From contig JAHBMJ010000995.1 in assembly GCA_018398765.1 (NCBI GenBank), positions 17,974-81,973 on the forward strand: a stretch of DNA of 64,000 nt, in the 5' to 3' direction. Of this stretch, positions 27,874-30,800 are shown piece after piece. This DNA comes from Chromera velia (lineage: Eukaryota; Sar; Chromeraceae). Below the pieces are notes generated by a model that saw only the letters and a list, made by a program, of their open reading frames with translations, was not told the origin of the DNA and ran no database searches. The position numbers and the translations under genes are program-made. Position 1 is the first letter of the stretch. Each line of letters begins with the position of its first letter.

Positions 27874-30800
27874 TCAGCCGGATGCCCAGGAAGACGATGA
27901 CGAGGAGCCCCCCTGCTGAGCATGAGACACCATGCAGTACGCCTCCTCCTCTCCCCCTGCCCCCTCCTGAATGCTGAATCCCTTCGTCAGACCCCGGTCC
28001 CTCGCCCGCCCAAAGAGCTCCTTCAGAGAACTCCTGGTGAGGCTCGGGGCACCTGCATGGACCTGTATACGCACTCTCCCCTTCGTCTTTGCCAACTCTG
28101 AGATTCCCTCCCACATTCTCCTTCTATCAGCCTCAGTCCCTGTCTGACGAAAGACAGACCCCTTGCCTTCCTTCGTTGCCCCCTCGACGTTTCCAAAAAC
28201 GAACATGCCGGGACCCCCCTTGGCGCTGCCGAATGATCCTCTGCCCGTCTTCTGAGGAGTCTGGACCGGCCCGGAAGAAACACCAAGCTGTGGTTTGCCC
28301 TTGGAAGTGCTCTCGTTCTCAGTCATGAAGGGAGTCAAATGGAAGGCAAGATGGAAGGTGACCATTCGACCCCCCAACGCGGCTGAGTGAAACTCTGTCA
28401 CTAGGGCCTCTGCCTTTTCACGAGTTGCAAATCGGGCGTAGGGCCGATCTACCCCGTCAGAACAGACGCGGACTTCCACAGGAGGAAAGCCGATTTTCGA
28501 CAGAAAGCTCTGCAGTCGATCGGAACTTGTCTCGGGTGAGAGGTTTGAGACGAACACCTTGCAAAGGTCTTCTTCTGGAGGAGTAAGCGGGGGCGGAGGC
28601 AGAGTCAGCTGCACCATCTGACGGGGGGAAGAGGGAATCTGCCCCCTTGGAGGAGACGGCTGCACCATCTGACGGGGGGAAGAGGGAATCTGCCCCTTTG
28701 GAGGAGACGGCTGCACCATCTGACGGGGGGAAGAGGGAATCTGCCCCTTTGGAGGAGACGGCTGCACCATCTGTACTTCCACGGGAGAAGACCGCTGCAG
28801 GATCTCAGGACAGGGAGACAAGATCTGCACCTGTGGTGTGGCAAAAGGAGAGGGCTGCACTGTCTGGGCGTTCTGCATCCCCTGAGACACAGCAAGCTGT
28901 GCCTGCAGCTGAGCGAGTTGTGCTTGTAGCTGAGCAGCGTGTGCTTGGAGCTGTGAAACCTTTTCTTTTTCTTTATCTTTCTCTGCGATGGCGTCTGCCG
29001 CAAGCTGTCTCTCTCGCTCAGTCTCCTCTTGCTGCAACCGGAAAGCTTCTGACTGCTCCTTTGACTCTCTTTTCAAATTTTTCACTTCCTCCTTCAACGT
29101 CTCCGTCTCCTGTTGCTTGGATCTGTCTGCATCTTCTCTCTCTTCCTCCTCCCTCTTCTTAGCCTCCTTTTCCTCTCTCAACGCACGCAGCGCCTCATCA
29201 TGTTTCCTCCTTTCCTCCGCTGCAGCCTCCTCGAGGGCCTTCTGACAAAGACGGTTTCGCTCCCTCTCCTCCTCCATCTCTGCCGTCACCCGCTCTCTCT
29301 CGGCGCGCTTCGCTTGTTCTACCGCAATCTCGATGGCGTTCTGCAATAGAAGGGACAAGAAAGAGGTCCAAAAAGCAGAAAGAAAGGGACGGTGTACATC
29401 CATCTACATTGACTGAGAGCCCGCTCAGAGCCGTCCTCGCATGAATACGGACAGACAGACAGGCAGGAATCCAGTCAGGAAGGCAGGCAGATATGCTCCG
29501 CCTGGTCGGAAAGCGACATGATCTGGTGTGCATCTGGTGGGCCAACACATTCTGCGTCTTTCGCTGTTTCGACAAATATGTCTGACGCACCCTTGAAGCT
29601 TTGTGAAATGCACAAAAAAGCCCCCCAAAAGACTGCAGGAGTACCCATCGATCTGGTCAACGGACCCCCCTCTTCTGAGAACAAAAGAGAAACTTGACAC
29701 TAAATTAATTGGAGAAATGCCGACCTTCTGCATCTTCCGGTAACCACGACGAGCTGCCTTGCCCCTTGTCAGAGCTTGCAGACGAGTCCACAGCCAGAGC
29801 ACCTGCAGCAGTGATCACGAAAACCACAGGGTGAAGAGATTCTCTGAAGTACGACACGCGCACAACAGTCAAGAGGCTTCACGCGAAAAAACTTGATCGA
29901 ATCAAGTCAAAGAAAGGCGTCGTTGGGAGAGAGAGACGGGAAGAAGGAACGGATGCAAAAGGACGTTGTTAATGTGATTTGGTCTCACTGCAATCCTGAA
30001 GGCATGCAGCAGCTGCGCACGTATCCAAACCCATTCATAAAGGAAAACAAAAACAGAAGGTCCAGCACAGACCGACCTTTCTGTCTCGTGCCATTTGGAG
30101 TCGCTCTGCCTTCTTCCTCCAGCACTTTTGGATCCGAGTGGCCTTGTGCGCCCGCTCTGTCTCAAGTGCCTCTCTCTTCATCTCTCTGAAGATGCACCGA
30201 GCCTTCACTGCCCTCAAGAGAGTCTGGATTCGAATCGCAGCCTTCTCTCTCTTTGCCTGTCTGGCAGCGAGGATGGATCTGTACCATCTCTGCAGAAGGG
30301 TGATCTGTCTGATGGCGTCTCTGCGTCTTTTCATCTCTTTCCATACCCCCCAAAGAGCACGGATCTTCTCTGAAGCCCTTTGCTTCATGAGAGGAAGCAT
30401 GACTGTCTCGCAGTAGACCTGTGCAGATGCGGCAAGTGTCTGGGCCCTCTGTTTCTTGAACCAGAGGAGGAAGCGCGCTGCCGTGCGATCACGCACACGG
30501 ATGCGCTCCTTCCTCTTATCCAACCAAAACTGATACGTCGCATCGACAAACCGCTGCCGTTCCTCGATGTCCTTACTGTCTCTGATCTTCTCCACTTCCG
30601 CTAAAGCCCCAAAACGGAAGAACACTTTCGTGTTCCCTAGGCAAAAGTCGTCTTCGGGAGTATTCAGAAAACGGAGGATGATGTCAACGAAGTCGGGGGG
30701 GCTCATGCGAGTGCGCATATTCTCTGGGAGAAAATCGGAGTACATGTCCCAGAGCATCTGGTAGGGCACACGACAGGGGAATCCCTCCTTCATGACATGG

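Follow-up and report, generated by a model that had tools for sequence, protein, structure and literature searches.

A predicted Chromera velia myosin gene with an RRM-type domain in its tail

Introduction

The gene analyzed here raises the question of whether a myosin heavy chain can carry an RRM, the commonest RNA-binding fold, in its own tail, and of what such a tail would do. It lies on the minus strand of a 64,000-nucleotide stretch of Chromera velia DNA (contig JAHBMJ010000995.1, positions 17,974 to 81,973; hereafter the window, whose numbering is used unless another contig is named). An earlier reading made from the letters alone (the sequence-only reading) had placed a motor, a neck and an RRM-like domain on one transcript, and had stated that no known myosin class has an RRM of its own.

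In actin-based transport, RNA is described as reaching the motor via RNA-binding adaptors (texts of PMC8004493 and PMC3281097). According to the text of PMC4501334, Chromera and Vitrella have the most complete myosin repertoire among the species compared, and CyMoBase includes Chromera class-26 myosins (text of PMC5583752). The terms “RRM” and “RNA” are absent from the main text of three surveys (PMC5583752, PMC2375034, and PMC3942036), the figures of which may still show such a domain. A literature search, for example with the direct phrase, returned no earlier description of an RRM-containing myosin, so that the statement about myosin classes held within the scope of main texts.

Results

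Gene Model and Exon Structure

In the predicted gene model (Table 1), all 15 introns are of the GT-AG type and one open frame runs through the entire protein. A myosin motor is followed by a putative IQ-type neck, a charged helix and a Pro-rich tandem repeat, and these by an RRM and a C-terminal domain; the three terminal exons are separated by two phase-0 introns.

Table 1. Features of the myosin gene and its surroundings in the window.
Feature	Position	Strand	Basis or remark
Whole myosin coding region, 1,701 aa	27874-37715	minus	16 exons, predicted model derived from the sequence
Exons 3-13, bulk of the motor domain	31533-36738	minus	Pfam PF00063, motif positions
Exon 14, last part of the motor plus neck	30077-31050	minus	PF00063 profile positions 548-679, IQ-like patterns
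Exon 15, 26 aa, with an IQ-like motif of 11 letters at residue 1195	29725-29802	minus	C2868 counterpart of equal length and phase
Exon 16, encoding the helix, the repeat, the RRM and the C-terminal domain in an uninterrupted frame	27874-29340	minus	Exon start matched by C2868
Charged helical region, residues 1214-1370	28870-29340	minus	Composition, C2868 alignment
Pro-rich linker of a 51-bp repeat	28608-28773	minus	3.3 copies, repeat unit of 17 protein letters
RRM, residues 1475-1538 (Pfam limits)	28366-28557	minus	Pfam RRM_1 plus structure and profile comparisons
C-terminal domain, residues 1613-1697	27889-28143	minus	Relatives on C1547 and C749
Perfect 31-bp tandem duplication over the exon 9 donor	33588-33649		Two donor copies, frame kept by the first
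702-aa open frame adjoining the myosin start	38499-40607	plus	No Pfam match up to E 1
Tandem repeat, 189-bp unit	41186-42162		5.2 copies, 84% matches

A splice-site matrix was built from introns 1-13 and scored over positions 31000-27900. Donor 30077 came out on top of the 162 GT sites, as did acceptor 29340 among the 306 AG sites, with donor 29725 at rank 4 and acceptor 29802 at rank 11. The codon score of intron 15 was negative in all three frames, and it was positive in the annotated frame for every part of exons 15 and 16 that was tested. Within exon 16, 12 donor–acceptor pairs scored at least as high as the weakest true site; none of the 12 spans the RRM, and excision of the RRM by an intron inside this exon was rejected on that result.

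Motor, Neck and Helix

The Pfam profile Myosin_head (PF00063) scored 573.5 bits on the whole protein against a cut-off of 33.3, the match falling into three stretches. The P-loop GESGAGKT was found at residue 181, switch I at 249 and switch II at 578. When the PDB was searched, the best solved match of the motor was myosin VI (E 7.4e-114), a ranking that is not a class assignment. IQ-like patterns were matched three times, namely at residues 1137 and 1169 in exon 14 and once in exon 15; the Pfam IQ score was 18.9 bits, which is below the cut-off of 20.3. The following helical region is rich in charge (32 K/R and 41 D/E in 157 residues) and may form a coiled coil or a single helix.

A Myosin Paralogue with a Different Tail

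A search with the motor as query found a myosin paralogue on contig C2868; its better matching motor exons are 65–79% identical and the others 43–51%. Its exon 15 has the same 78 nt, phase and boundaries; the two 26-residue peptides agree at 18 positions, and their alignment score of 100 exceeded the highest value of 46 from 2,000 shuffles. The start of exon 16 is likewise the same: its first 90 aa scored 209, where 2,000 shuffles reached 126 at most. In both exons the third codon position differs most often, with 6, 5, and 14 differences by codon position over the 26 codons of exon 15 and 10, 6, and 18 over the opening 30 codons of exon 16. At the level of the sequence, the doubt whether exon 16 is part of the myosin thus appears largely resolved by this paralogue. 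Together with the single predicted frame and the splice-site ranks, it supported the claim that one gene encodes a full motor, a neck and an RRM-type domain.

The counterpart of exon 16 on C2868 contains 208 helix codons, followed by a donor and then a different tail. The 1,845 bp between the helix exon and the contig end showed no RRM, although one could lie past that end. When tail residues 1461-1701 were compared with C2868:1-9990 by tblastn, the best match (E 0.03) fell inside the helix exon and none was convincing. Among the RRM_1 matches of the best 150 of 208 candidates, a limit past which weaker RRMs may lie, one of nine myosin-head contigs had an RRM, and it was the present one. Since no RRM was seen on the C2868 contig, there is no conserved fused architecture to cite.

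On contig C3519 (80817-81041 and surroundings), a fragment of a related myosin was observed that is rearranged: its neck and exon-5-like pieces do not follow the gene order.

Sequence Evidence for the RRM

The RRM_1 profile (PF00076; Pfam cut-off 20.7 bits) scored 25.6 bits (E 1.1e-5) on a 248-aa tail piece, covering profile positions 1-67 of 70, and 23.7 bits on exon 16; on the whole protein the score was 21.2 bits (E 2.7e-4), just over the cut-off. The sequence-only reading had put the domain at residues 1485-1570; the domain itself was recovered, and the Pfam limits lie about 10 residues lower, an offset that comes from the gene model. RNP2 is VFVSNL (28557-28540) and RNP1 is RPYARFAT (28446-28423). 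In a register that agrees with the PDB alignments, RNP1 positions 2, 3 and 5 are Pro, Tyr and Arg, respectively. This agrees with the earlier description of a weak RNP1 that lacks the central aromatic residue. Two of the three classical aromatic RNA-contact positions are kept (Phe in RNP2 and Tyr at RNP1 position 3), Arg occupying position 5. The domain has no net basic character, with 9 K/R and 11 D/E in 87 residues.

In the PDB, phmmer matched 2a3j (E 1.9e-4), a redesigned U1A, and SFPQ chains (E about 0.01). When the myosin RRM was combined in one profile with three RRM-like units from contig C1295, hnRNP A1 RRM chains came first in the PDB (E 5.2e-6). Taken singly, two of the C1295 units scored 17.2 and 15.9 bits, below the cut-off of 20.7, and the third had no RRM match; the whole C1295 ORF and an ORF on contig C3476 both passed RRM_1 (8.4e-10 and 7.7e-9, respectively), and both are multi-RRM proteins. 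The myosin RRM and the first C1295 unit have 30 identical residues over 74 gapless codons, with 26, 27, and 45 differences by codon position, and a DNA-level search found no similarity between the myosin RRM and the C1295 RRM. Given differences rich in third positions and no similarity in DNA, the protein sequence is therefore what is kept.

On C3476 (L027:2040-5662), the 324-aa ORF with RRM-like units adjoins an 890-aa ORF, which looks nucleotidyltransferase-like by eye and matched no Pfam family.

Structure Predictions for the RRM

The sequence-only reading had named a beta-alpha-beta-beta-alpha-beta fold as the expected structure. AlphaFold (AF2, single sequence) predicted this E-H-E-E-H-E order for the RRM alone, at low confidence (mean pLDDT 58), whereas in the model of the 248-aa tail piece the RRM part was not folded (pLDDT under 50). 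With the RRM-only model as query, all Foldseek matches had E values above 0.001. Ranks 1-8 fell at E 0.018–0.044, rank 1 being a spliceosome chain and ranks 2-8 NONO/SFPQ or RRM proteins by description, and PII-like ferredoxin-type folds appeared from rank 10.

C-Terminal Domain

Two relatives of the C-terminal domain were found in one 342-aa ORF on C1547:36984-37745. The 3' part of the gene, this domain included, recurs with its 3' flank as decayed DNA on C749:16118-17030. In the AF2 model of the 248-aa piece, the domain reached a pLDDT of about 70 over most of its length. With that model, Foldseek matches all stayed above E 0.001, and chains of the mitochondrial IF3 type appeared with probability 0.90–0.92 and E about 0.14. 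A domain profile returned three weak, unrelated rows from the PDB, and neither Pfam nor this PDB profile search matched a known family. Alba had been suggested by the order of the elements, which is Alba/IF3-C-like, and was rejected, as a search of the tail piece and the C1547 protein gave no Alba match up to E 10.

Discussion

Proposed Role of the Tail

We consider it about evenly balanced whether the gene encodes an unconventional myosin that has its own tail as cargo hook and whose RRM anchors or carries RNPs directly. In such a protein, the motor would move or hold on actin, light chains would occupy the putative IQ-type neck, and RNA or an RNA–protein particle would be bound by the RRM, possibly together with the C-terminal domain; RNPs would thus be anchored or carried by the myosin directly, without a separate adaptor. 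After gene duplication, one copy would have gained, or the other lost, the largely intronless RRM tail. The stronger reading, in which this is the first myosin that is itself RNA-binding, a duplicated chromerid copy with an RRM and a lineage-specific domain in its last exon that acts as a one-piece RNP motor, falls somewhat short of an even chance. Of the earlier proposal of a direct RNA-transport or RNP-anchoring motor, the RRM-type domain in the motor gene stood, and RNA binding is what we infer from it. As far as the letters can carry it, the RNA-motor reading may be taken as a good hypothesis and not as a result.

Alternative Explanations

The main rival explanation is that the RRM-type fold binds protein, as an ordinary cargo-adaptor surface, and that RNA is uninvolved. 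Some RRMs bind proteins, and the absence of the position-5 aromatic from RNP1, the composition of the domain, which is not basic, and its nearest relatives (the C1295 units), which are likewise atypical RRMs, all point in this direction. However, the two classical aromatics in RNP2 and RNP1 are kept, and these relatives sit in tandem multi-RRM proteins, an arrangement usual for RNA binders. With one aromatic position lost and atypical relatives on C1295, protein binding is therefore a serious possibility, although we would give it distinctly less than an even chance. It is rather improbable that the protein is a nuclear or splicing-linked myosin, in which the RRM would dock the motor on nuclear RNPs and not on transported cytoplasmic RNA. 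Its best PDB and Foldseek relatives, nuclear RNP proteins such as hnRNP A1, SFPQ/NONO and SF3B, would fit this reading, but they carry little weight because such proteins dominate the solved RRMs.

Two further explanations concern the gene itself. An in-frame ATG at 29403, right after a stop, opens a 509-aa frame of its own, as would be expected if exon 16 were a separate downstream gene and the myosin stopped earlier; the rank of acceptor 29340, the codon scores of intron 15 and of the adjoining exons, and the paralogue, in which exon 15 and the beginning of exon 16 recur in phase, all speak against it. The separate gene was rejected on the splice-site ranks and the paralogue, and its probability is very small. 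Hardly more probable is a decaying duplicate without a working protein. The scattered gene fragments, rearranged on C3519 and decayed at the 3' end on C749, and the duplication that covers the exon 9 donor would fit such a locus, but the frame stays open over all 1,701 aa, splicing at the first exon 9 donor copy preserves it, and the divergence of the RRM from its relative is enriched at third codon positions.

Meaning of an RRM in the Heavy Chain

A tail with an RRM on a known motor is a new tail variant. If RNA binding by the RRM holds true, a heavy chain of this kind would amount to a minimal RNA motor, the RNA specificity of which would be testable on a single domain. The two paralogues, with a common exon 15 and exon 16 start and different tails in one genome, would illustrate the replacement of a motor tail after duplication.

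Comparison with Known Systems

The predicted protein has in common with unconventional myosins (PF00063) a motor with nucleotide-binding motifs, a putative IQ-type neck, a helical region and a cargo tail, but its tail differs in ending in an RRM and a domain of an unnamed family. The C2868 paralogue shares exon 15 and the beginning of exon 16 with the RRM myosin and has a different tail after the helix. The Chromera velia domain resembles the RRMs of hnRNP A1 and SFPQ/NONO in its RNP2 VFVSNL and its RRM_1 score above the cut-off, whereas the Arg at RNP1 position 5 and the fusion to a motor set it apart. The Myo4-She3-She2 system of budding yeast, as described in the texts of PMC3281097 and PMC8004493, would be alike in that a myosin moves RNA on actin, if RNA binding is true here; there, however, the RNA is held by She2/She3 and not by the myosin, whereas in Chromera velia the RRM would be in the heavy chain itself.
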